Assembly: GCA_016194335.1 (NCBI GenBank)
Contig: JACQBR010000009.1
Coordinates: 1-41,207 of the forward strand
Direction of reading: 5' to 3'
Source of the DNA: Microcaldota archaeon
Lineage (GTDB): Archaea; Micrarchaeota; Micrarchaeia; Norongarragalinales; UBA97
Length of the DNA: 41,207 bases
Of this stretch, positions 14,092 to 40,907 are shown piece by piece. The notes under the pieces are model-generated. The model ran no database searches. It saw only the letters and a list, made by a program, of their open reading frames with translations, and was not told the origin of the DNA. The translations under genes were made by a program, and so were the position numbers. Each line of letters starts with the position of its first letter. Position 1 is the stretch's first letter.

Positions 14092-14214
14092 AGTGCCAGC
14101 AGCAACGGGCTTTCCCAAGCAGAGCTTAGTACTCGCCGCGTCGTGAAGGGGCTTAACTTCCGTGTTCGAGACGGGAACGGGTGTGACCCCCTTCCTATGA
14201 CCGCTGTACGCACT
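14092..14214 (-). rRNA. rrf: 5S ribosomal RNA
   Basis: On the minus strand a 123-nt sequence carries the 5S hallmarks: the CCCGTTCCCGTCTCGAACAC core, GGAAGTTAAGCCCC, and GAGTACT in the loop-E region. Helix I pairs AGTGC at the 5' end with GCACT at the 3' end. A TATA box (TTTAAAAA, around 14233-14240) lies about 22-25 bp before the 5' end, and a T5 run follows the 3' end. No 16S or 23S gene is nearby, so 5S is unlinked from other rRNA genes within this window. Confidence 0.95.
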
Positions 14215-16837: not shown

Positions 16838-18442
16838 TCACTCCGCCCTTCCCTTCGCAGCCTTTACGAACCCGTAGTAGAGAGGCTCGGGCTCTTCGAG
16901 GCGAGAGTCGAATTCTGGGTGTGCCTGCGTGCCCATGAAAAACGGATGGTCTTTCAGCTCTCCGATTTTCATTATTTCCCGCTCGGGGTCCTTTCCGCTA
17001 AAGACCCAACCCGCCTCTTCAAACTGCTTTACGAATTCCGGGTTGATTTCATAGCGGTGGCGGAAGCGCTTGGTGATCTTTTCCGATTTGTAAAGCTCAA
17101 ACGCCTTGGTCCCCTTGAGAACGAGGACTTGCTTTGCGCCCAGCCTCATCGTCCCGCCCTTTTCAGTCACCGTCTTCTGCTCGGGAAGGATGTCGATGAC
17201 TGGATGCTTCGTGTCGGGCTCGTTTTCAGTTGTGTTCGCATCCTTAAAGCCGAGGAGGTTTCTGCCGCTTTCGATGACTGCAAGCTGAAGACCGTAGCAA
17301 ATTCCCAAGTAGGGAACGCCGTTCTCGCGCGCGAATTTCACCGCCGCAATCTTTCCCTCGACGCCGCGGCCGCCAAAGCCGCCGGGCACGAGGATGCCTT
17401 GGAATTCCGAGAGGTTGGCCTTTCCTTTCTCCAACGCCTCGCTGTCGATAAGAGACGCATCTACGTGAACGTCGTTGTGAACCCCGGCGTGAAGAAGTGA
17501 TTCGAAAACGCTCATGTACGCGTCCTTCGCGCCCGTTGCATACTTGCCAACCACGCCTATCTTCACCGTCGGGCCTTTCTCGCGCAGTTCCTTGAGCCTG
17601 CCCACGAGTTTCTTCCACTCGTCAAGCTTGCCGTCCTCGAACTTGACGTGCATCCTTTCGCAAATGCGCTGCGCAACCCCCTGCTTCTCCAGAGTCAGGG
17701 GCAGTTCGTAAACAGAATCGAGAGTGGGGGATGTGAAGACATTCTCTTCCCGGACATTGCAGAACAGGGCGATCTTTTCCTTCACAGGGTTGGTGAGCAT
17801 CGAGTCCGCGCGGGCGACGAGAAAGTTTGGGGTGATTCCCCTTGCAAGCAGGGCCTTGACCGAGTGCTGCATGGGCTTCGTTTTCGCCTCGCCCGTCGTA
17901 ATGGTGGGGACGAGCGCGAGGTGCACGAACGTGACTGCCTCGGGCGGCTCCTCGAAATTCATCTGCCTCGCGGCTTCAAGCACCACTTCGCTCTCCAAGT
18001 CGCCCACCGTCCCGCCGATTTCCACGATGAGGACGTCGGCGCCGGTGACCTTGGCGCAACTGCGGATGCGGGCCTTCACCTCGTTGGTCGCGTGGGGAAT
18101 GAGCTGGATTGTCTTGCCGAGGTAGTCGCCGCGGCGCTCCTTGTCAATCACCGCCTTGTACACGCTTCCCATCATGAGGTTCTGCTCGTGGACGGCAAAC
18201 TCGTTGAGAAAACGCTCGTAATTCCCCACGTCAAGGTCGCATTCGAACCCGTCGCGCGTGACGAAAACCTCGCCGTGCTCAAACGGGTTGAGAGTGCCAG
18301 CGTCGCAATTTAGGTAAGGGTCAATCTTCATCACGCTCACCTTCACCCCCCCTTCCTTGAGGAGCTTGGCAAGCGACGCTGCGAAGCTCCCCTTCCCCAG
18401 GGACGAAAGCACCCCGCCGGTGACGAAAACGAACTTCGACAT
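16838..18442 (-). CDS. pyrG: CTP synthase
   Basis: This is a 534-residue enzyme converting UTP, ATP and glutamine to CTP. The N-terminal synthase domain shows KFVFVTGGVLSSLGKG, then KIDPYLNCDAGTLNPFEHGE, and VEIGGTVGDLES. The C-terminal class I glutaminase domain has the nucleophile in GICYG (commonly GICLG) and a catalytic HPEF. The length is standard. An in-frame TTG precedes the ATG by one codon. The gene is complete, without inteins. Confidence 0.97.
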   Translation of the reverse strand: MSKFVFVTGGVLSSLGKGSFAASLAKLLKEGGVKVSVMKIDPYLNCDAGTLNPFEHGEVFVTRDGFECDLDVGNYERFLNEFAVHEQNLMMGSVYKAVIDKERRGDYLGKTIQLIPHATNEVKARIRSCAKVTGADVLIVEIGGTVGDLESEVVLEAARQMNFEEPPEAVTFVHLALVPTITTGEAKTKPMQHSVKALLARGITPNFLVARADSMLTNPVKEKIALFCNVREENVFTSPTLDSVYELPLTLEKQGVAQRICERMHVKFEDGKLDEWKKLVGRLKELREKGPTVKIGVVGKYATGAKDAYMSVFESLLHAGVHNDVHVDASLIDSEALEKGKANLSEFQGILVPGGFGGRGVEGKIAAVKFARENGVPYLGICYGLQLAVIESGRNLLGFKDANTTENEPDTKHPVIDILPEQKTVTEKGGTMRLGAKQVLVLKGTKAFELYKSEKITKRFRHRYEINPEFVKQFEEAGWVFSGKDPEREIMKIGELKDHPFFMGTQAHPEFDSRLEEPEPLYYGFVKAAKGRAE

Positions 18443-18517
18443 CAATACCGCACCCTAAACGCTAAAACAAAATACAATACGAAACGAGACTAAGCCGAAG
18501 AAGGCTTTTAAGGATTC

Positions 18518-18607
18518 TTAATGGTCCAGCCAGGTGGGGAAGATGGCCTCCGCCACGTGGAAGAGGACGAAGCCGATTCCGATGCCGAAAAGGACGTCTG
18601 TGAACAT
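18518..18607 (-). CDS. 29-residue single-TM microprotein
   Basis: ATG 18607 to TAA 18518 encodes MFTDVLFGIGIGFVLFHVAE followed by nine residues (AIFPTWLDH), almost entirely one membrane helix. AAGGTAA lies about 6 nt upstream, and a TATA-like CTATAATT lies farther up. It is too short for standard annotation and no family is recognised. Support comes from the translation signals and the clean hydrophobic helix. Confidence 0.5.
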   Translation of the reverse strand: MFTDVLFGIGIGFVLFHVAEAIFPTWLDH

Positions 18608-18723
18608 GCGATTACCTTAGTTAGATTCCTGACAAATTATAGCGATTTTATCATAATATGTCATAAAAGCAAAGGCTTAAATTTCTTCGGCTCCCAATAG
18701 AATCACCCAAGGAGGTGGTGCGA

Positions 18724-18954
18724 GTGGAGTATGTAAGAGAGATTGCGGCGGAGGAGAGCGGCAAGCATTTCGTCAACGCATTGCTTCTCGCTTTCGCGCT
18801 GATCGCGTTCCTCGTTGGCGAAAACCTCGTGGGCGCTGCCGGCATTTCCATCCTGGCAATCAACTCCATCCATTTCGGGACGGAAACCCGGAAGGAAACC
18901 GACTATTCCCTGCACGCCTTTTCTCCCGCGCTGCTGGCCTTTTTCCCGGTATGA
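18724..18954 (+). CDS. small membrane protein, hypothetical
   Basis: This is a 76-residue protein. GTG 18724 is chosen because GGAGG lies 8 nt upstream; GTGs at 18715 and 18718 overlap that site. YVREIAAEESGKHFVNALLL leads into two hydrophobic spans. A TTAAATTT element at about 18677 is the likely TATA box. The family is not recognised. Confidence 0.55.
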   Translation: MEYVREIAAEESGKHFVNALLLAFALIAFLVGENLVGAAGISILAINSIHFGTETRKETDYSLHAFSPALLAFFPV

Positions 18955-19194: not shown

Positions 19195-19500
19195 CTAGTG
19201 GCCGTACATGACCTTCCTTGCCGAGGCGAGGCGGCTTTCGCGCTGTCGCACGAGCTGGAAGAAGTAGGCCGCACCCGCGAGGGAGATGACGGAGATTGCG
19301 GGCGCGCTGGCGATGAAGTAGATTGCCACGCCGATGAGGACGTAGATGTAGAGGTGGAAGCGGATGAGGTCCTTCCAGAGGGGGAAGTAGTTGGACATGT
19401 ACGCCCAGCGGGTGGTGCGGCCGACTAGGGGCTTGGAAAAGTCCTGGATGACCGTGGTCTCCCCGATGGCAGGTTGCGGTGTGAAGTGCGCGTCGCTCAT
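19195..19500 (-). CDS. paralogous two-TM protein P1 of a six-gene cluster
   Basis: This is a 101-residue protein, last in the cluster transcribed from 21352. After a polar N-terminus comes the cluster signature TRWAYMSNYFPLW (TRxx[YF][LM]x6W), then two hydrophobic spans (LYIYVLIGVAIYFIAS and ISVISLAGAAYFF) and a basic tail. The same motif and topology recur in P3, P5 and P6. No known family is recognised. A small membrane-complex subunit is the simplest reading. Confidence 0.7.
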   Translation of the reverse strand: MSDAHFTPQPAIGETTVIQDFSKPLVGRTTRWAYMSNYFPLWKDLIRFHLYIYVLIGVAIYFIASAPAISVISLAGAAYFFQLVRQRESRLASARKVMYGH

Positions 19501-19514
19501 TTCAGTTTTTCACC

Positions 19515-19976
19515 CTATAGCGTGTAAGTCATGCTCTTTCCCTTGTACCACGCGATTCCCCACGCGGCGTTGAGTATGCGCTCGCTGTAGAAGTGGCCTG
19601 CGAGGTAGGCGCAGCCCGCGGCCACCCAGACGTTGAAGAACGCGGTGACGAGCGTGGCGAGAGCGAAGAAAACTGCAAGGACGTACGCCTTGTAGATTGC
19701 GGCGAAGTTTCCGCTGCGCATGCTCGCGTCGAGATTGTCGTTGAGCATGTCGCCACGGGTCACGATGTCCGCAACGTGGGTGGGAACACTTTTTCCGCGG
19801 CAGATTATCATGTCCGCGCCGGGCGCCCTGCCCATGGGCATGAAGACGGGCACGAAAGTCTTCTCGCTTTCCGCAGCGCCGTGGCTGTCGCCAGGGCCTC
19901 CTGCGTGGCTATTGCTCGTGGCACCGGGCTTGTGGGCCAGGTTTTTCTTCAGTTGGGAGATTCCGATCATGTTCAT
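19515..19976 (-). CDS. paralogous two-TM protein P2 of the cluster (diverged)
   Basis: This is a 153-residue protein with a long Gly/Ser/His-rich N-terminus, a segment FVPVFMPMGRAPGADMII that resembles FTPVPMFLPTRTFGNN of P6, then TRGDMLNDNL in the place of the cluster motif (the Trp is replaced), and two TM spans. It ends with a Trp/Tyr-rich tail. P2 and P6 thus form a subgroup within the cluster. The gene is 14 bp from P1. The function is unknown. Confidence 0.65.
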   Translation of the reverse strand: MNMIGISQLKKNLAHKPGATSNSHAGGPGDSHGAAESEKTFVPVFMPMGRAPGADMIICRGKSVPTHVADIVTRGDMLNDNLDASMRSGNFAAIYKAYVLAVFFALATLVTAFFNVWVAAGCAYLAGHFYSERILNAAWGIAWYKGKSMTYTL

Positions 19977-19982
19977 TGCCTT

Positions 19983-20279
19983 TTAGAGGTCGGCGCCGAC
20001 CAGCTTCCTGTCGAGGTGGAGGTGGTGGGTGCTCAGAAGCGACTTTTGGTAGAAGTATGCGGCGAGGGCGAGCGCCGGGACGGCAAGGGGCGGGAAGCGG
20101 AAGAGCATCACCACTCCCGCAATCGCGAGGCCTATGGCGTAAGTGCGGAATTGGAACTGGCCGCGCCAGTGGGGGATGAAGTGCTCGAGGTAGCTAAGGC
20201 GGGTCTGGTCGCGCATGAATGCGTGGCCGTGGTCGCCAAAGACGCTCGAATGCTGCAACTGCGCTTTCTGTACGTCCAT
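19983..20279 (-). CDS. paralogous two-TM protein P3 of the cluster
   Basis: This is a 98-residue protein. TRLSYLEHFIPHW carries the shared motif at residues about 26-38. It is followed by RTYAIGLAIAGVVMLF and LAVPALALAAYFYQ, and a basic C-terminus. The AAYFYQ end of the second span is nearly the same as AAYFFQ in P1, so P1 and P3 look like the closest pair. It is separated from P2 by 6 bp. Confidence 0.7.
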   Translation of the reverse strand: MDVQKAQLQHSSVFGDHGHAFMRDQTRLSYLEHFIPHWRGQFQFRTYAIGLAIAGVVMLFRFPPLAVPALALAAYFYQKSLLSTHHLHLDRKLVGADL

Positions 20280-20283
20280 CTTT

Positions 20284-20547
20284 CTACACCAGCTTGAGCT
20301 TGATTGCCGAATATGCGAGGCTGAAGAGGATTGCCGACCACACCATCCAGTCGGGGGCGATGAAGCTGATTGCCGTGCCGTTCATTGCCACGGGGAAGGG
20401 AACGTGCGCCTCTTCGGGAAGCGCGATTTTCACGATGCCGAAGTCCTCGAGAAGCGAGCCGAAGGCTGCGATGGGGTCGGGCCTGATGGCGTGGGGGAAT
20501 TTCTTGGCTGCGTTATTGTCTGCGAAAATCCACATTTTTTGCACCAT
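20284..20547 (-). CDS. single-TM protein P4 within the cluster, not a paralogue
   Basis: This is an 87-residue protein lacking the TRxx[YF] motif. The N-terminal 60 residues are soluble (DNNAAKKFPHAIRPDPIAAF and so on) and probably fold on one side of the membrane. A C-terminal TM (WMVWSAILFSLAYSAIKL) anchors it. The gaps to its neighbours are 4 and 15 bp, so it belongs to the same operon and presumably the same complex. No family is recognised. Confidence 0.6.
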   Translation of the reverse strand: MVQKMWIFADNNAAKKFPHAIRPDPIAAFGSLLEDFGIVKIALPEEAHVPFPVAMNGTAISFIAPDWMVWSAILFSLAYSAIKLKLV

Positions 20548-20562
20548 TTTCTTAAATTTTTT

Positions 20563-20970
20563 CTAATCCACAAGCACCAGCGACCTGTGGTTGCCGAACT
20601 TGTGCACGATGAGGTTGTACCACCACGCGAGGTCGAAGAAACGCGCGGAAACCGCAATCATCAGGAGCGCGCCGGGCGTGAACACCTCCAGCGTGAGGAT
20701 GCCGAGCGCAAGAAGCGCCACCGCGAGGATGCGCGTGACGTGCTCGTACTTCCAGTACCCGACGAATTCCTCGAGGTATTCCCAGCGGGTCCAGTTGCGC
20801 ATGTTGGGCGGCAGGTCCGGCTTGCTTTCCGCCGGGAGCATGGTATTGTGCTGCTCTTCGGCAAACTGGCCCGCGGCCATGCGCCTCATCTGCTGCGCGC
20901 CCGCGTTGAAGTCGTGGCCGCCTGCGGCTGCAGAGAAGCTCACCGGAACGCTGAAACCTTCTGAAGCCAT
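20563..20970 (-). CDS. paralogous two-TM protein P5 of the cluster
   Basis: This is a 135-residue protein. A 60-residue polar N-terminus is followed by RNWTRWEYLEEFVGYW, the clearest copy of the cluster motif, then two hydrophobic stretches (ILAVALLALGILTLEVF and ALLMIAVSARFFDLAWWY) and KFGNHRSLVLVD. The N-terminal extension differs from those of P1 and P3. Paralogues with different soluble extensions suggest specialised subunits of one assembly. Confidence 0.7.
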   Translation of the reverse strand: MASEGFSVPVSFSAAAGGHDFNAGAQQMRRMAAGQFAEEQHNTMLPAESKPDLPPNMRNWTRWEYLEEFVGYWKYEHVTRILAVALLALGILTLEVFTPGALLMIAVSARFFDLAWWYNLIVHKFGNHRSLVLVD

Positions 20971-20980
20971 TTTTCATCCC

Positions 20981-21352
20981 TTATGTCGATTCGAGCAGGC
21001 GCCTCTTCCCGAGCAGCTGCGTGACGTAGAACTGTTCCCAGATGAACTTTCCGTAAAACCAACCGGCGCCAAGCCCCGCGAGGGCGGAGAGGTAGACGTT
21101 GCTGAAGAGCAGAATTATTGCAGCGCCGCTGAGGGCGTACGCGATTATCTTGTTCACCCTCCAGGCAATCCAGTGGCTGATGTTGGCGTCGAGAAACTTC
21201 TGACGGGTCATCACCGTCACGACGTTGTTGCCAAACGTGCGGGTGGGCAGGAACATTGGGACGGGGGTGAACTTGGGATGGGCAGCGTGCGGCTCGCTGG
21301 AGGGCTTGAGGCCCATTTGGCGAATCTCCGACACGCTAAGCTTTTCAACCAT
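20981..21352 (-). CDS. paralogous two-TM protein P6, first gene of the cluster
   Basis: This is a 123-residue protein starting at ATG 21352, with AAGGGAG upstream. It has a cytosolic-looking N-terminus, FTPVPMFLPTRTFGNN shared in outline with P2, the motif TRQKFLDANISHW, and spans IIAYALSGAAIILLF and LSALAGLGAGWFYGKF. It is the promoter-proximal gene; all six genes follow with gaps of at most 15 bp. Confidence 0.7.
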   Translation of the reverse strand: MVEKLSVSEIRQMGLKPSSEPHAAHPKFTPVPMFLPTRTFGNNVVTVMTRQKFLDANISHWIAWRVNKIIAYALSGAAIILLFSNVYLSALAGLGAGWFYGKFIWEQFYVTQLLGKRRLLEST

Positions 21353-21385
21353 CGTTGCTCCCTTAGCAATAACTATGGAGTTCGT

Positions 21386-21396
21386 TATATTTAAAC
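21386..21396 (-). promoter_or_regulatory. TATA promoter of the six-gene membrane-protein operon
   Basis: GTTTAAATATA on the minus strand lies about 35-45 bp before the P6 ATG. It is the only strong TATA box upstream of the six tightly packed genes, so one transcript is likely. Confidence 0.6.
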
Positions 21397-21538
21397 TTAT
21401 CAGTAGTAACAAACTGCAAGCCCGCTTTCCTGCCATAAATGGCGCCAACGGCGATTGACGAAGAAAAGGTCGGGAACGCAAGCGCGCCTCTGGGAAGAAA
21501 TGGGACTATTTATACGCCGCAACCCCCTTACTCTCCCC

Positions 21539-26300: not shown

Positions 26301-29300
26301 TTACTCGTCCAAGTCGCCGATGCCGTTTTCCGACACGGTGAAGATGCACTCGCCATCAGGCATGTTGGGAGAGTCGACGAGCTTGGCGATGCGCCGCGTT
26401 TCCTTGCTCCTGCGCAGGTAGATGCGGTATGTCGCAAGGTGGGCAATGATGTTGCCGCCCACGGGGGCAGTGGGGTCGCCGAATAGGATGTCGGGCCGGT
26501 CCATCACCTGGTTGGTGAGGTACACTGCGAGGTTGTAAATGTCCGCCAGCCTCTGCAGCGCGTGAAGGTGCTTGTTGAGCTTTTGCTGCCGCTCGGCCAA
26601 CTCGCCTCTGCCGGTGTAGTCGCTCCTGAATGCGCTCATGAGCGAGTCGACGATGACCAACTTGACATTGTGCTTCTGGATGAAGTCCTCGGCCTTCTCC
26701 GCAAGGAGCACTTGGTGGTCGGAGTTGTATGCCCTCACGTAAAAGATGTTCTTGAGGATTTCATCTGGGTTCAAGCCCTTCGCAGTCGCGATTTGGGCGA
26801 CTCTCTCTGGACGGAAGGTGTTGTGAACGATTATGCCGCCGGTGCCGGCGACGAAGTTCTCCACTTCCTTGCCATCGGGCATCACCTCAAAGTCGTAAGT
26901 CGTTTCCTCGCCGACTTTCTCTATGGAAATTACTTGATCAAACCAGAGCTCGCTGTTCACGAGCTTCCTCAACTTGCTCACTGAAGGCGTTTCCTTTGGG
27001 AACTTGTCTAAGATTTTAGACAGCTTACTCCGGCTGAATTTCTTGAAGCGGCCGACTTCAAGGTTGGAAATCGTGCCAGCCAGCCCGTTGAGGCAAACGT
27101 CCGTCTCCCTCAAACCCTGTTCAGCCCTCGCACGCTTGAGCAGACCTCCAACCTGAAGCGAGTCGTTGGGAAGCAACTCAAGCGTCCTGTCCTTCACGTT
27201 TTTGGGAACCCAGTGGATGTTGAACGAATCCCGAGGCCCGATGCCTGAAGACGCATTCATCCTGTGCGTCAGCTGCATTCGCGCGGGCACGCCAAGGGAC
27301 GCCATGAGGTAGAGCAGCCCGCTTGCGAGTTCGGCACTCACGGTGTCGGCATTCTGAGTGTTGAGCTGGGCGTTGAAAGACCCGTCCCCGGCGAGATAAC
27401 CTCGCAGGAAATCTTCCCGCGCATCAAAATCCGCGTTGAATATCCGTTCTGGAATGCGCTTGTGGTGCGCGTCGTATTTCGTTCCGGTGTAGCACTGCTT
27501 GAGTTCTTCAGTGAGGCCCTTGGAATAAATCTTCAGGTCACAATTGTTCCTATGACATTTGAGCCCCCTGGCGTCCGCAAACCTCCTGACCATGGGCGCA
27601 ACCTGCTTCTGTTCCGTGGCGGTGACTATGGCCAGGTAATGGCCGGTTCCGTAGCGGTTGTCGGGAATCATGCTGCCGTCGGCAACGTAAGCACCCAAAA
27701 ACTCGGCCTCTTCCTGCGGCAAGGCTTCGGTCGCAACTTCTGGAATTTTGGCCGGAACGGGGACGAAGCTTCCGACCTTGAGGTCGTTAAGATAGGTGGG
27801 TACCAAGTCGGCCCCGGAGTTGAGGGTGAAGAAATTGTGGTATTTAGTCGTCTTCACGCTGCGGCCGCTTGCAAGCTTAACCTCAAAAACCTCCTTCTTT
27901 GGATGGCGCATGAAACCGGTGGGCTTGAAGAACTTCATCTTGTAATCGTCAGGATCGAACGAAACCACTTCAATCCCAAGGGGATTTTCGGCCGAAGAGG
28001 TGGTGCCATGCAGCTCGCTTAGCGCCGTGCTTTTTTCAAGCGTCTTTTCAACAACCTCGCCGATTTTCCTGAATGAAAGCCTCCCGTCGGCCTTCACCAA
28101 AACGACTTCATCGTAAGGCAGGCTGTTTTCAGTGTCGATGAAAATCACGCTCCCCCCAAGCCCGCCCTTTTCCACGGGCTGCTGGGCATTCACGCAAAGC
28201 TGGAACGCCAGTTGGGTGTTGTGCATCAGTGTTGGGGTGTTTCCGCCTACGAACGTGTGGCCATCAGGGACGACGAAGTCGTAGACGAAGTCGTTGTAAT
28301 CCAACACTTGCCCTTGTTTCACTTCATCCCAGCGGAAGAGCGCGACTATCTTGAGTTGCTCGATTCCTTTCTTGAGGTTTTCAAGCTTGGCGTGGAGTTC
28401 CTGCATTTTTTTTGCATCGGACGAATCCGTCTGGCTTAGGCGTTTTTCAAGATGGGGTGCAAATTCCTTGACCAGGAAGTTTATCGCTTGAGCAAGACGT
28501 GCGTCAGTCAATTTATCGAGCGGCTTGCCCGCAAACGGTTTGCCGGCTGAAGCGCCCCTATAAATGCGGTTGATCAGCGAGAGAACTTCGGCAGGGCAAG
28601 TGGCTTGAGCCGCGTTGTCGTCGGAAGTGAAATATTTGAAAAACGCGTCGTCCTCGCTATAGCCGGACTGTTCCTGCGTTGGGGAAATGCTTCTGGGGCA
28701 CGCTATGCTTTCTCCCCGAGCAATTTCGCCCGCCTGTTTCCACACGAGGCCCTGTTTTGAGAGGGTGAGGAGCCGGTGGGGAAGCGTTAGCCTTAGTTCC
28801 TTGCCCCTCTTGGTGGTTAGTTGGACTATCTTGCCGGCCTTTTCCTTGTAAATGTGGGGGGCTTTCACCACGGTCATGCCACTGTTGGTAAGGCCGAAGA
28901 CACTCACGCAAGGCACGTCAACCACGAAACCAGAGTCGTGCGGCCTCTCGCCGTAAGTCGTGGCGTACTTGTCGTAGGTCTCTTCAATGTTCTCAAGGTG
29001 AAAATGCTCGTCGTTAAGGTAGGCAACGGGCGTGTCTTTAGCAATGCACTTCCCGCTCGAATATTTGCCGAATGCCTCGGTTATCGACTGGGTTTCAACA
29101 CCGCCGCCGATAAGCGCGTCCAACTCCTTGCTTCCGGTGGTGATGCGGCCTATTGTCTTCCTCCGTTCAAACACCTGGTCCCCGGTTTCGAAACCCAGCT
29201 CGAGGGCCTCGCGCGCGGCGTTGATGATTTTCGCGGCGGTGGGTTCGCCCAATCCCGCCACTTCGGCAAGTTCCGCAGCCATTGCGTACGCCACCTGCTG

Positions 29301-29510
29301 GAGCGAATCGTAGCCCGCGTCCTTCAGCTTCTGAGCGGTGGTCTCCCCAACGCCGGGAAGCTCTTCGACAGCGGTTACCTTCTTCTTTTCCCGCCCCTTC
29401 TTCTCTTCCTTCACGAAACCCTCGGGAACCGAGAGCACGGGGACGTTTGCCTCTTCCATTGCAGCAGCCTCCATCACTGGGGCATTTTCGCCTTCCATCT
29501 TCCTAGCCAT
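26301..29510 (-). CDS. radA: DNA repair/recombination ATPase RadA containing two inteins
   Basis: The precursor is 1069 residues from ATG 29510 (GGGTGA upstream; GTG 29522 is four codons earlier). The exteins total about 357 aa, normal for archaeal RadA. They comprise an N-terminal HhH region (VEELPGVGETTAQKLKDAGY), Walker A FGKYSSGK, Walker B LVIVDSLMSAF, loop segments with DPTAPVGGNIIAH and a C-terminal NMPDGECIFTV. RadA forms filaments on ssDNA for strand exchange. Intein 1 interrupts the P-loop after its Lys; intein 2 interrupts FIDTEN|TFRPERV 31 residues later. Both must splice for activity. Confidence 0.96.
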   Translation of the reverse strand: MARKMEGENAPVMEAAAMEEANVPVLSVPEGFVKEEKKGREKKKVTAVEELPGVGETTAQKLKDAGYDSLQQVAYAMAAELAEVAGLGEPTAAKIINAAREALELGFETGDQVFERRKTIGRITTGSKELDALIGGGVETQSITEAFGKYSSGKCIAKDTPVAYLNDEHFHLENIEETYDKYATTYGERPHDSGFVVDVPCVSVFGLTNSGMTVVKAPHIYKEKAGKIVQLTTKRGKELRLTLPHRLLTLSKQGLVWKQAGEIARGESIACPRSISPTQEQSGYSEDDAFFKYFTSDDNAAQATCPAEVLSLINRIYRGASAGKPFAGKPLDKLTDARLAQAINFLVKEFAPHLEKRLSQTDSSDAKKMQELHAKLENLKKGIEQLKIVALFRWDEVKQGQVLDYNDFVYDFVVPDGHTFVGGNTPTLMHNTQLAFQLCVNAQQPVEKGGLGGSVIFIDTENSLPYDEVVLVKADGRLSFRKIGEVVEKTLEKSTALSELHGTTSSAENPLGIEVVSFDPDDYKMKFFKPTGFMRHPKKEVFEVKLASGRSVKTTKYHNFFTLNSGADLVPTYLNDLKVGSFVPVPAKIPEVATEALPQEEAEFLGAYVADGSMIPDNRYGTGHYLAIVTATEQKQVAPMVRRFADARGLKCHRNNCDLKIYSKGLTEELKQCYTGTKYDAHHKRIPERIFNADFDAREDFLRGYLAGDGSFNAQLNTQNADTVSAELASGLLYLMASLGVPARMQLTHRMNASSGIGPRDSFNIHWVPKNVKDRTLELLPNDSLQVGGLLKRARAEQGLRETDVCLNGLAGTISNLEVGRFKKFSRSKLSKILDKFPKETPSVSKLRKLVNSELWFDQVISIEKVGEETTYDFEVMPDGKEVENFVAGTGGIIVHNTFRPERVAQIATAKGLNPDEILKNIFYVRAYNSDHQVLLAEKAEDFIQKHNVKLVIVDSLMSAFRSDYTGRGELAERQQKLNKHLHALQRLADIYNLAVYLTNQVMDRPDILFGDPTAPVGGNIIAHLATYRIYLRRSKETRRIAKLVDSPNMPDGECIFTVSENGIGDLDE
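26820..28124 (-). mobile_element. RadA intein 2 (435 aa) with LAGLIDADG homing endonuclease
   Basis: The intein begins with Ser (SLPYDEVVLV) after FIDTEN and ends IIVHN before Thr. Splicing block B is GRSVKTTKYHNFF. Two dodecapeptide blocks, FLGAYVADGSM and FLRGYLAGDGSF, mark a DOD endonuclease. A helix-turn-helix-like stretch (LLKRARAEQGLRETDVCL) follows and may contact DNA. The endonuclease looks intact. Confidence 0.93.
28218..29048 (-). mobile_element. RadA intein 1 (277 aa, no endonuclease motif)
   Basis: The intein begins with Cys (CIAKDTPV) directly after Walker A and ends LMHN before Thr. Block B shows LTTKRGKELRLTLPHRLL (TxxH) and block F shows FVVPDGHTFVGGN. The 140-residue centre is helical and Gln/Lys-rich, without LAGLIDADG blocks. 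It is either a mini-intein or one with an eroded endonuclease. Confidence 0.9.
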
Positions 29511-29817
29511 ATCTTGTCTCACCCTTGTTTTTACCCTTTCCGCCCTGCAGAGAAAGCGGAGAAGGGATTATCGTGAAAACAGGAAGCGGGGGGTTGTGCC
29601 GAAGGTAATAAAAGCGGGGAACTTCCAGACTTGTTGTGGCGCAACTGCCGGGAAGGAACCTGGCGCTTTTTTCTCTCTTTAAACCATAAACCCTGTCCGA
29701 CACCCCTCGACTTCCTTGTTGGAAAAAGAGTTCCGCTTGGGTAGTATTTAAGCGAGGGAGGAGGTGGCTTGCCAGCCTTGCCGCCCCCTAAGTGTTCTGT
29801 AACGTTTCTGCGGTAAA

Positions 29818-37777: not shown

Positions 37778-37848
37778 GCGGCCGTGGTCTAGTGGTATGA
37801 TACCGCCTTGCCAAGGCGGAAATCCGGGTCCGATTCCCGGCGGCCGCA
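37778..37848 (+). tRNA. tRNA-Gly (anticodon GCC)
   Basis: A full cloverleaf fits. The acceptor is GCGGCCG/CGGCCGC with discriminator A; the D arm contains AGTGGTATGA; the anticodon stem CCGCC/GGCGG has loop TTGCCAA (anticodon GCC); the T arm is CCGGG-TCCGATT-CCCGG. CCA is not encoded and there is no intron. The AT-rich ParA/DUF4209 island starts right after it. Confidence 0.96.
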
Positions 37849-37925
37849 CTCAACCCAAGGCTCAGTTCCTACAGGCCCTAGAAAACTTAGTCTCGTCACC
37901 TTGAGTGAGCTTGAAGCTGGAGAAG

Positions 37926-37981
37926 TTTATAAGCACTGCACCGGTTAGGCGATGGACGAAACTAGATCTAAAGCTGCTTAG
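37926..37981 (+). promoter_or_regulatory. orphan TATA/leader unit at the left end of the island
   Basis: TTTATAAGCACT is followed 12 bp later by TTAGGCGATGGACGAAACTA. It resembles the unit upstream of the 39144 gene. A 9-codon reading (MDETRSKAA) starts at the expected leaderless position 37952 and ends at 37981, touching the end of the ParA-like gene. It is probably a duplicated promoter remnant. Confidence 0.45.
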
Positions 37982-38961
37982 AGTTTTTCGATTATTTTTT
38001 TGGCGATTGTAGAATATTCGGTATTGCACGTGTTTACTGATTCTGCGTGCGTACCGAATACGCCGTCACTGGCGGTTAATTCGAATATAGGCTTCCGTGC
38101 AGTTTGAGAAAGTGGGGCTAGACTGTGGTAATTCTTCATATCGCCCAAGAAATAAGTTCCGCCATTTAGTTGCTTAACTAGGGCGGGGTCAACTGCAGAG
38201 AGTTTATTCACGATGTCTGTAGTTATCTTACCTGGTATTTGTTTAGTCCAGGCTTCGTATGCTTGAGTTGGTCTTTGTCGATAGATATTGAACTGAGAAG
38301 TAACGTAACCTGCAAAAGCGGGTTTTCCTTTCTGAATTTTGAATGTTCTTTCAGTCAAGCGACTGGATGCGTCGCTCCAGGTTTTCATCCATTTTATGAA
38401 AGTTGTACCAATGTTGCCTAACCCGCGAATGGAAAACATGTCCGGAATGAGTGGAACTATGAAGTAATCGCAGCCGAGTAGCATTGCTCTGTTTAGTGCA
38501 CCCAAATTAGGGCCCACGTCGATAAGCACGTAATCTATTTGATTAGAGCTAGCCCAGTTTTCAGTTAAACGATATAATGCAGAGGTAACTCTAAAACCGA
38601 CTTCTCTTCCAGCAAGAACATCCACCCAACTCTCTGACAAAAAGTCTTCAAACTCGCTAAGTAGCAAGTCACCAGGATAGAGCCATAGGTTTCGGTTAGG
38701 TATTTGATATGGGGTTATCTCCGTTTTTATGTCTCCTAGACCTCTAACGAGCGGCTGAACGGCCGAATTTATGCTTTTCCCGTTGTCCCAGAACTGGTTG
38801 ATTTGGTCATCTGAGCAAATATACGCCGTCAGATTGCATTGCGGGTCTGCATCTACGAATAGCACCCTCTTGCCTTGACGCTCCAAAGCGTAACCTAGGT
38901 GCTGTATGAAGGTAGTTTTGCCTACCCCGCCCTTGTTGTTGAATAGCACTATCTGTTTCAT
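37978..38961 (-). CDS. ParA/MinD-family ATPase
   Basis: This is a 327-residue P-loop ATPase of the deviant Walker A type, KGGVGKTT at residues 10-17. It continues with VLFVDADPQCNLTAYI (switch/A' region), YVLIDVGPNLGALNRAMLLG (Walker B) and IVPLIPDMFSIRGLGNIG. ParA-like ATPases move plasmids or other cargo, and some act in defence loci. No ParB gene is visible. The low GC content and divergent orientation with the 39144 gene mark both as one acquired module. Confidence 0.9.
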   Translation of the reverse strand: MKQIVLFNNKGGVGKTTFIQHLGYALERQGKRVLFVDADPQCNLTAYICSDDQINQFWDNGKSINSAVQPLVRGLGDIKTEITPYQIPNRNLWLYPGDLLLSEFEDFLSESWVDVLAGREVGFRVTSALYRLTENWASSNQIDYVLIDVGPNLGALNRAMLLGCDYFIVPLIPDMFSIRGLGNIGTTFIKWMKTWSDASSRLTERTFKIQKGKPAFAGYVTSQFNIYRQRPTQAYEAWTKQIPGKITTDIVNKLSAVDPALVKQLNGGTYFLGDMKNYHSLAPLSQTARKPIFELTASDGVFGTHAESVNTCNTEYSTIAKKIIEKL

Positions 38962-39078
38962 ACACTATACCTATGCGGGCAGTGTTTTTTAATCGTATTT
39001 AAATGAACTATTTACGCCACGTTTTGTTGAAAGCCCAGATCCAGTTTCCAAATTCCGGCCACTCTCAAGCGTTAGAGC

Positions 39079-39147
39079 TTTATAAGTACCTCTCAAAGTT
39101 AGTTGATGGATGGAAACAGTCTAGTCTATGGCAGGTATAACGTATGA
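39079..39147 (+). promoter_or_regulatory. TATA box and 13-codon leader ORF of the DUF4209 gene
   Basis: TTTATAAGTACC is followed about 25 bp later by ATG 39106, which opens MDGNSLVYGRYNV and stops at TGA 39145-39147. The stop overlaps the next ATG (39144) as ATGA. A leaderless mRNA would therefore translate a short leader peptide coupled to the main gene. A similar unit lies at 37926. Confidence 0.45.
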
Positions 39148-40907
39148 AAATAATCGACAAAGAACTTGGTGAAGTTCTGGTGGGTTTAGATAAACTTGAG
39201 CTAGAGGAATATTTTCCTTACGAAAAAGAAAAACTACTAGGTGAAGCAGCGAAGACTTTTGATTTAGCTCACAATCAACAAGATCTTGATTTAATTCGAT
39301 TGGAACGGATGCTACTCAACAATACTATTGCTTTAGGTGTTGGCGTCATTTCTGATAAATGGGCGTATATTTCAACGTCAGATAAAATCAATCAAAAGTT
39401 CTCTTTCTGGAAATATGATCAACTCGCCGTAGATTACTTTAAAGAACGGTTGGAAATGCAAATCCCTCCATTAGCTCAAGCTAGAATTAGTTTCTATCTT
39501 TGGACTGCAACAAAGAATTTTGATTATGCAATTGCTGCAATCAATAAGTTCATGGAAGCTATCTATTCGCACGCTGTAACTCCAGGTTTCGAGTTCCAAA
39601 GAACTAGTTTTGAGGTTGGAAAATTCATGCTGCACTTCCTTAAGTGCCTGAACAGAAAATCAGATTTAAAGGCGAGTTATTTGCTTTTGTGCGAAAAAAT
39701 AGTCGAAGAGATACGGAATAAAGAGCCTGGCAGTATTTGGTTAAGAAATTGGATCCAAACGACTTTAACTCTCTACGTATATTTGTGGCCGGATTTTTCT
39801 GATTTAGAAAAAGAAAGCGCTCTCAAACTAATCAATTTTTGTGAATCTAAGGCTGATGGGTGCGTTAGTGCTAAAGAATTTGATGGTGCTATTCAGTGGG
39901 AAGTCCTCGTTGAACATTTTGGAAAAGAAACCAGAAGCCAAGATTTGTTCGAAAAAGCTAGGAGAAATCACTTGTCGTTTCTTATTGCTAAAGCCGAAGC
40001 ACTTCCAGTTTCAATACTTAAATCATCCGCCTATGAATCTGCTATTAGGTATATGAACCTAAATGCGATAAGGGATGAAAAAATAGGAGTTAACCTAATG
40101 CCTGATTTCGAGCGTGCTTCAGAAGCTTCTAAGATAGAATTCAAGGAAGTGAGAACTAGTGTGGAAATACCCCAAGCTAGCGTAGATCAAGAACTGGAAA
40201 GAATATGCGGTAGTACTACTGGGACGGCTTTACTAGAACTTTTAGCAGAATATCTGATTCCTTCCAAATCACAAGTCGAAAAACAAGCTAACCTTTCTGA
40301 AGGTTCTCTTGCTTACATCTTACCTACAGTTATACAGTACGCTGGCCACACGTCAGCTCCAATCACTAGTCTTGAGGATAAACATAGACTTGAAATGTTA
40401 AAATCGGCTTCGCTTATCTTGCAGTTTAATACCGTGATATTGCAAGGGGCAATGGAAAAATATAAAATAACTGATGCCACTTTCAAAACTGAAATAGACG
40501 AATCAAATATAGGTGATAATTCGAAGAGTTTGTTAAAATACGGCGTGGAGAAGCACTTTTCAGGCGATTACGTTTCCTCCAATCACGTTCTAGTTCTGCA
40601 AATAGAAGAACTAATGCGACAAGAAGTTCGAAGGAGAGGTAAGTCAACTAGTAAGTTTAGCTCTGATGACTCTGCAATAAATTTAAAACTATTGGGTGAA
40701 CTCGTAAGCACGCAAGAGATAATAGCCGTATTTGGAGAAGATTTTTGTCATGCAATAGGCGCATATTACTCGAATCCTAGAAACCATAATCTGAGAAACA
40801 GACTCGGTCACGGTGTAATGGAGATAAGTGATTTTAATAGAATAAATTCGTTGGTCACATTATTCGTGATTGTGTTTATTCTCTCAAAAACCAAAGAAAC
40901 TATTTAA
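39144..40907 (+). CDS. DUF4209/HEPN-type protein
   Basis: This is a 587-residue, largely helical protein, AT-rich compared with the rest of the window. The C-terminal 100 residues show NLRNRLGHGVMEISDFNRIN followed by a hydrophobic helix. RNxxxHG is the conserved motif of DUF4209 and matches the R-x4-H RNase signature of the HEPN superfamily. The N-terminal 400 residues are repeat-like helices without a recognised family. It is divergent from a ParA/MinD ATPase. A toxin or antiviral RNase is a reasonable inference, unproven. Confidence 0.7.
   Translation: MKIIDKELGEVLVGLDKLELEEYFPYEKEKLLGEAAKTFDLAHNQQDLDLIRLERMLLNNTIALGVGVISDKWAYISTSDKINQKFSFWKYDQLAVDYFKERLEMQIPPLAQARISFYLWTATKNFDYAIAAINKFMEAIYSHAVTPGFEFQRTSFEVGKFMLHFLKCLNRKSDLKASYLLLCEKIVEEIRNKEPGSIWLRNWIQTTLTLYVYLWPDFSDLEKESALKLINFCESKADGCVSAKEFDGAIQWEVLVEHFGKETRSQDLFEKARRNHLSFLIAKAEALPVSILKSSAYESAIRYMNLNAIRDEKIGVNLMPDFERASEASKIEFKEVRTSVEIPQASVDQELERICGSTTGTALLELLAEYLIPSKSQVEKQANLSEGSLAYILPTVIQYAGHTSAPITSLEDKHRLEMLKSASLILQFNTVILQGAMEKYKITDATFKTEIDESNIGDNSKSLLKYGVEKHFSGDYVSSNHVLVLQIEELMRQEVRRRGKSTSKFSSDDSAINLKLLGELVSTQEIIAVFGEDFCHAIGAYYSNPRNHNLRNRLGHGVMEISDFNRINSLVTLFVIVFILSKTKETI

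Follow-up and report, generated by a model that had tools for sequence, protein, structure and literature searches.

Closest described systems

The transmembrane (TM) domain of DUF202 (PF02656) and of the yeast VTC polyphosphate polymerase (Vtc1/3/4) is a small hairpin with a cytoplasmic motif and an Arg/Trp-rich entry, and Vtc1/3/4 form a hetero-oligomer of paralogues. The ATP synthase c subunit (PF00137) is a small-residue-rich two-helix hairpin, and c subunits pack side by side in a ring. In the caveolin-1 8S complex, a homomeric eukaryotic assembly, each subunit has a short inserted hairpin with both ends in the cytoplasm and contributes a single C-terminal strand to a multi-subunit beta element (PMC10212548). 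At the level of transcription, archaeal activators usually bind just upstream of the BRE (PMC5512572). The fla (archaellum) operon of Methanococcus maripaludis, a single organelle operon, is controlled in this way by EarA through four 6-bp sites immediately upstream of the BRE/TATA (PMC5512572). Lineage-specific modules of TM-rich hypothetical proteins are also known in archaea (PMC9258230).

We analyzed a stretch of DNA of 41,207 nucleotides (contig JACQBR010000009.1), here called the window, from an archaeon of the order Norongarragalinales in the phylum Micrarchaeota. It contains an operon of six genes for small membrane proteins that can be compared with these systems. Like DUF202 and VTC, the operon encodes small hairpins with a cytoplasmic motif and an entry rich in Arg and Trp, and a hetero-oligomer of paralogues is suggested for it as well. 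However, the motif of the operon proteins (the TR motif) is not inside the hydrophobic span but about 17 residues ahead of it, and the hairpin is shorter. The c subunit shares the small-residue-rich hairpin, but it is a separate family with its own gene, has longer hydrophobic helices, and lacks both the cytoplasmic strands and the TR motif; the resemblance implies no homomeric ring. Caveolin-1 has no sequence relation to the operon and serves as an analogy only. Where EarA has four sites, the promoter carries a single asymmetric box of 10 bp for which no binding protein is known, and archaellum genes are absent. We found no account of such an operon in the literature, nor any family or system already described that has the same anatomy; our profile searches for homologues spanned the phylum.

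Organization of the operon

A previous sequence-only reading of the window had described six minus-strand ORFs, numbered P1 to P6. All six are present, separated by gaps of 4–15 bp, and we name them by position as slots A to F; alpha and beta refer to the two classes of hairpin subunit discussed below. Slot A (P6, alpha1; 21352–20981) encodes 123 aa with an N-terminal MFLP segment, a strand, the TR motif, a short hairpin and the C-terminal residues RRLLEST. Slot B (P5, beta1; 20970–20563) encodes 135 aa with the TR motif, two helices and a C-terminal RSLVLVD; a conserved Arg/Lys followed by Asp/Asn lies inside helix 2 or at its edge. Slot C (P4; 20547–20284) encodes 87 aa comprising a cytoplasmic LLED helix and one TM helix. 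Slot D (P3, beta3; 20279–19983; 98 aa) is an additional copy of the beta class, found in families f1 and f3 only. Slot E (P2, alpha2; 19976–19515) encodes 153 aa with a long variable N-terminus that is His-rich in relatives, an MFVP segment, the TR motif, the hairpin and a C-terminal KGKxLxxT. Slot F (P1, beta2; 19500–19195) encodes 101 aa with the TR motif, the hairpin and a C-terminal RKVMYGH. In some genera (L035, L038, L045, L034) slots B and E have N-terminal tails conspicuously rich in His and Gly, for example HGGGHGGHAPHPEIPH, hinting at a possible sensitivity to metal or pH.

There is no enzyme, regulator or cargo gene among the operon's genes that would point to a function. Their GC3 (0.78–0.89) and their fraction of C-ending two-fold codons (0.81–0.95) are at or near the top of the window, a codon bias consistent with high expression, though an indirect sign of abundance. 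A 79-aa plus-strand ORF downstream (18715–18954) was rejected as a part of the operon, having no relatives in the order, and the long plus-strand ORFs opposite the operon (e.g. 19593–20297, 20215–20964 and 20591–21394) were taken to be shadows of GC-biased codons. Between the operon and the CTP synthase gene there is also a 29-aa hydrophobic ORF on the minus strand (18519–18608; MFTDVLFGIGIGFVLFHVAEAIFPTWLDH) with an AT-rich upstream region.

Comparison with known families

The sequence-only reading recognized no known family, and our searches agree: none of the six proteins has a significant Pfam or NCBIfam match. A Pfam scan of every aligned member of slots A to F returned isolated single-member matches only. 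PHROGs gave no match at E≤0.1, and a fold search against viral models (BFVD) had a best E of 1.5, so neither by PHROG nor by viral fold do the proteins belong with phage or viral membrane proteins such as holins; one stray Phage_holin_3_3 match was seen in one of the 25 slot-B members (E=0.033). Sequence matches of slots A and F in the PDB (b562-fusion, CTR1) were set aside as weak and directed at engineered helical fusions. The ATP synthase c subunit has its gene elsewhere in 22 of the order's 29 genomes and was never matched at the operon. Likewise, no operon protein matches the S-layer profile (PF05124); only the divergent neighbor in family f4 does.

Distribution and conservation

A search with P6 found relatives in 26 of the order's 29 genomes, the window's own genome included, and none in the remaining class sample. 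Profile searches gave matches to slot A in 26 of 295 genomes and to slot B in 26 of 301, the latter set covering the whole phylum. All of them are within the order, with none in the 266–272 genomes of the phylum outside it. All significant matches fall in this cluster, at a single locus in each genome, and none points to a dispersed copy. The absence from G025 and from G021, two of the three genomes that lack the operon, looks like an assembly gap. The G025 contig ends beside the S-layer gene, at the operon's expected position, and G021 is without the large S-layer gene that neighbors the operon in its family. The third genome without the operon is G008.

Conservation of the cluster in relatives had been proposed as a check, and we retrieved 26 further clusters for comparison. 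Gene order is shared by 26 of the 29 genomes, with the arrangement A-B-C-E-F invariant among the clusters examined. Slot D is located between C and E, except in L036 where it is between E and F. Slot C is present in all clusters examined; in L055 it was missed by the profile, and the gap between B and E contains an ORF with the slot-C signature. The G001 cluster is split over two contigs. A second operon contig in G003 (L053, G003:C41) has the same ORF lengths and scores as that of G017 (L052, G017:C32); it is probably binning contamination, and L053 was excluded from the tree. The operon genes are under purifying selection: pairs of closely related genomes gave dN/dS of 0.04–0.33 across the five shared slots, leaving out comparisons in which dS is saturated. 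A different known family for each protein, or a lack of conservation in any relative, had been named as the outcomes that would contradict the earlier reading. Neither was observed: the proteins are without a match among known families, and the cluster persists throughout the order.

That the genes encode independent small membrane proteins with separate roles, merely kept in one transcription unit after duplication, is very improbable, as all slots are kept together in a fixed order in several families and remain distinct from one another in the tree. A nearly fixed operon across the order that has no homologue elsewhere in the phylum suggests a role in how these cells are built.

The TR motif is spelled TRWAYMSNYFPLW in P1, TRLSYLEHFIPHW in P3, TRWEYLEEFVGYW in P5 and TRQKFLDANISHW in P6, as had been read from the window. 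The strict form is kept in 14 of 25 orthologues of P6, 9 of 25 of P5, 5 of 24 of P1 and none of 24 of P2. In a relaxed form the motif is found in 20 P6, 19 P5 and 20 P1 orthologues of these same sets, and again in no P2 orthologue. Given the gene order kept in 26 of 29 genomes, the profile-profile E-values between slots and the dN/dS values, the joint observation of cluster and motif is more than chance.

Two classes of hairpin subunit

Profile-profile comparison (hhalign) matched slot A (P6) with slot E (P2) at E=6.5e-19 and slot B (P5) with slot F (the P1/P3 class) at E=3.6e-19, and slot A (P6) with slot B (P5) at E=6.8e-12. A maximum-likelihood tree of 102 cores places A+E (100/98) apart from B+F+D (100/98). 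Within this tree a branch with starred support sets off A, and likewise E; B is set off with weaker support, and F and D do not separate from each other. As judged from sequence comparison, the hairpin proteins fall into two ancient classes, alpha (P6 and P2) and beta (P5, P1 and P3). The E-values and the tree together suggest that the ancestor was probably an alpha/beta gene pair that was duplicated before the order radiated. The operon would then probably be a duplicated pair, alpha1-beta1-P4-[beta3]-alpha2-beta2, in which two pairs flank the one-TM P4 and the third beta copy (P3) is optional; slot D is probably a later beta copy. If so, it provides a case of a multi-subunit membrane complex arising through duplication of a two-gene pair.

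Paralogues produced by tandem duplication had been proposed before, and this part of the proposal stands. The grouping changes, from four copies plus a degenerate one to a duplicated alpha/beta pair: P2 is not a degenerate form but, by profile comparison and in the tree, the sister of P6, and the N-terminal segment that the two were seen to share belongs to this sister relationship. Our tests also support the description of variable N-termini attached to a retained membrane core.

P4 had been regarded as an unrelated one-TM partner, which is correct for most genomes; the general P4 profile shows no similarity to the hairpin slots. However, in one sub-lineage, genera g10 and g17 of family f6, the long slot C has a second hydrophobic segment with a weak likeness to the P1 hairpin. 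Its score against slot F was 26.9, a value reached by 0 of 100 hydropathy-preserving shuffles, and no such similarity was seen to slots A, B and E. Slot C could be a decayed hairpin paralogue.

Predicted structure and possible function

Two AlphaFold2 models were computed from read-through fusions with shallow alignments (41–43 rows); one fusion came from the window and the other from a relative. The P5-P4 model (mean pLDDT 71, pTM 0.58) has two 31-residue helices (62–92 and 98–128) and, next to P5, a confident P4 TM helix (residues 207–224, pLDDT about 96). The alpha2-beta2 (E-F) model from the relative L041 (43 rows, mean pLDDT 80.9, pTM 0.65) has strands at 35–39, 114–118, 147–151 and 218–222; in each subunit one strand directly precedes the TR motif and another coincides with the conserved C-terminus. 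The alpha2 and beta2 subunits are thus predicted to be strand-helix-helix-strand proteins with a short membrane hairpin between two cytoplasmic strands. A C-terminus (RTVMIGH, KGKPLIATK and equivalents) that forms the last strand would explain the strong conservation of the final residues. Basic residues occur on both sides of the hairpin and, by the positive-inside rule, both termini are predicted to be cytoplasmic. The hydrophobic span is about 26–28 residues. DUF202 hairpins from this phylum span about 36, and one ATP synthase c subunit that was extracted has 36 hydrophobic residues. By this comparison the operon hairpins are short, like membrane-shaping hairpins. Neither model has a significant match in the PDB by Foldseek, and a fold without a counterpart there would be a new structure.

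DUF202/VTC was considered as a candidate family because the P5-P4 model gave weak Foldseek matches to VTC (best E=1.8–2.3, prob 0.47–0.66). It was rejected by a family search, by shuffle-controlled profile tests and by the second model. The DUF202 profile matched 0 of the 6 window proteins at E≤1 and none of the scanned members of slots A, B, E and F. A genome search found DUF202 elsewhere but never at the operon in any genome, profile-profile scores (12.4–17.8) lie inside the shuffle range with 7–33 of 60 shuffles as high, and the L041 E-F model has no VTC match.

The same likeness bears on whether the operon encodes a heteromeric channel or transporter, in which the alpha/beta hairpins and P4 would line a pore and the cytoplasmic strands and tails would act as a gate or docking ring. 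A hetero-oligomer of two-TM and one-TM subunits is a common channel architecture, the charged and polar positions of slot B lie in or at the edge of helix 2, and the helices are moderately hydrophobic; short, weakly hydrophobic helices also fit pore-lining or tightly packed TM helices. However, the weak likeness to VTC pore subunits (prob 0.66, E=2.3 for the P5-P4 model) has no profile support and is lost with the second model, and neither the operon nor its immediate neighborhood offers a conserved pore signature, a selectivity motif, an ATPase or a substrate-binding protein. We consider a channel or transporter unlikely.

Our first choice, held tentatively, is that alpha/beta hairpins and P4 form one dedicated, abundant hetero-oligomeric membrane complex of this order, which would shape the membrane or serve as a structural scaffold in the cell envelope. 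We infer the hetero-oligomer from the invariant co-occurrence and order of the genes, the separate conservation of the slots and the two-subunit AlphaFold model. The scaffold is preferred given that nothing catalytic or substrate-binding lies alongside, the hairpins are short, the cytoplasmic, strand-bearing ends could link subunits, and expression is seemingly high. The building unit would pair an alpha with a homologous beta hairpin subunit. Each would begin with a variable cytoplasmic tail and a short strand, continue with the TR...W helix, which leads into the short hydrophobic hairpin, and end in a C-terminal strand. Subunits would probably be packed side by side via their small-residue-rich hairpins and cytoplasmic strands, with the P4 helix occupying one position in the assembly. 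The product would most likely be an abundant scaffold with its own promoter and, probably, a dedicated activator. A wider claim, which we make with less assurance than the scaffold itself, is that this is a prokaryotic membrane assembly of a kind not previously described. It would be a hetero-oligomer built from duplicated alpha and beta subunits of strand-hairpin-strand form, with a one-TM partner, encoded by a single-copy operon that is fixed in this one order and has its own transcription system, and possibly forming an order-defining structure or organelle-like coat.

The promoter element

We identified a conserved 24-bp element, TGTTACTACTGATAAGTTTAAATA, upstream of slot A (21388–21411, minus strand). 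The element consists of a 10-bp upstream box, TGTTACTAC[C/T], a BRE-like stretch and a TATA box (TTTAAATA, about 21395–21388); the single TATA box noted earlier is therefore present, as a part of this longer element. The consensus upstream of slot A in nearly every genome is TGTTACTACC-N3-AAGTTTATAWA. With up to three mismatches the element precedes all 27 clusters in 26 genomes, a conservation that is partly circular because its columns were picked from these same promoters. The genome-wide specificity is free of this circularity: a stricter pattern at up to two mismatches has 26 sites in 295 genomes, all of them before the operon, with 0 in the reversed control. A slightly looser pattern adds one site (L164, G006:C52:2738–2760), just upstream of an ORF for a VirB11/GspE-like secretion ATPase, which is the only other near-match in the order at up to two mismatches. 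The element is thus essentially private to the operon, with effectively one site per genome in 25 genomes. It is usually 17–45 bp from the first in-frame start codon, and about 350 bp in G006. In L055 (G002) an inverted GTTACT...AGTAAC repeat with a second, reversed copy of the promoter box lies just downstream of the TATA box.

The extra ten bases lie just upstream of the BRE, and by analogy with other archaeal promoters the operon is probably read by a dedicated activator. A conserved box immediately upstream of the BRE/TATA, as EarA-like control would call for, is found at the operon promoter. Being nearly unique, the element makes it testable which factor reads it and when the complex is made.

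An element serving a single operon directly upstream of the BRE/TATA, the usual activator place (PMC5512572), is also what might be seen if the archaeon were a symbiont and the operon encoded a device for host contact or for interaction between cells, turned on by an activator of its own much as EarA controls the archaellum operon. The genomes of the order are reduced (0.4–1.4 Mb), and lineage-specific archaeal hypothetical proteins are often membrane-associated and possibly interaction-related (PMC9258230). However, the termini are predicted to be cytoplasmic and the outward loop has only a few residues, leaving almost nothing outside the cell, and the operon includes no adhesin or secreted partner. 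Such a device appears improbable.

Genomic neighbors and other features of the window

In family f4 (L034, L038, L043, L045, L046, L047, L050 and L052) a large S-layer gene (PF05124) is divergent from the operon at a distance of about 300–520 bp. This adjacency speaks for the envelope scaffold; as a key to function, S-layer linkage was considered and rejected, being confined to this family.

The S-layer gene is relevant to the suggestion that the operon products are accessory (supernumerary) subunits of a larger machine encoded elsewhere, such as the ATP synthase, the translocon, or an S-layer or pilus export apparatus. The operon has no catalytic gene, and the order possesses both ATP synthase c subunits (22/29 genomes) and S-layer proteins (27/29, adjacent in family f4). 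However, in most families the operon is never located with subunits of such a machine, and its private promoter element argues for separate control. We regard an accessory role as doubtful, somewhat more so than a channel.

A CTP synthase gene lies downstream on the same strand in 12 examined genomes, the window (16838–18445) and 11 relatives. It is not universal, and is possibly an ancestral neighbor.

Elsewhere in the window, a minus-strand ORF of 1073 aa (26301–29522) encodes a RadA recombinase that, judging from its translation, is interrupted by two apparent inteins, one at the Walker A region and the other at Walker B. At 37778–40907 a ParA-like ATPase and an ORF of 587 aa come after a tRNA gene; their GC3 of 0.44 and 0.32, much lower than about 0.7, suggests that an element has integrated at the tRNA. 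An isolated 5S rRNA gene is found on the minus strand at 14094–14208.
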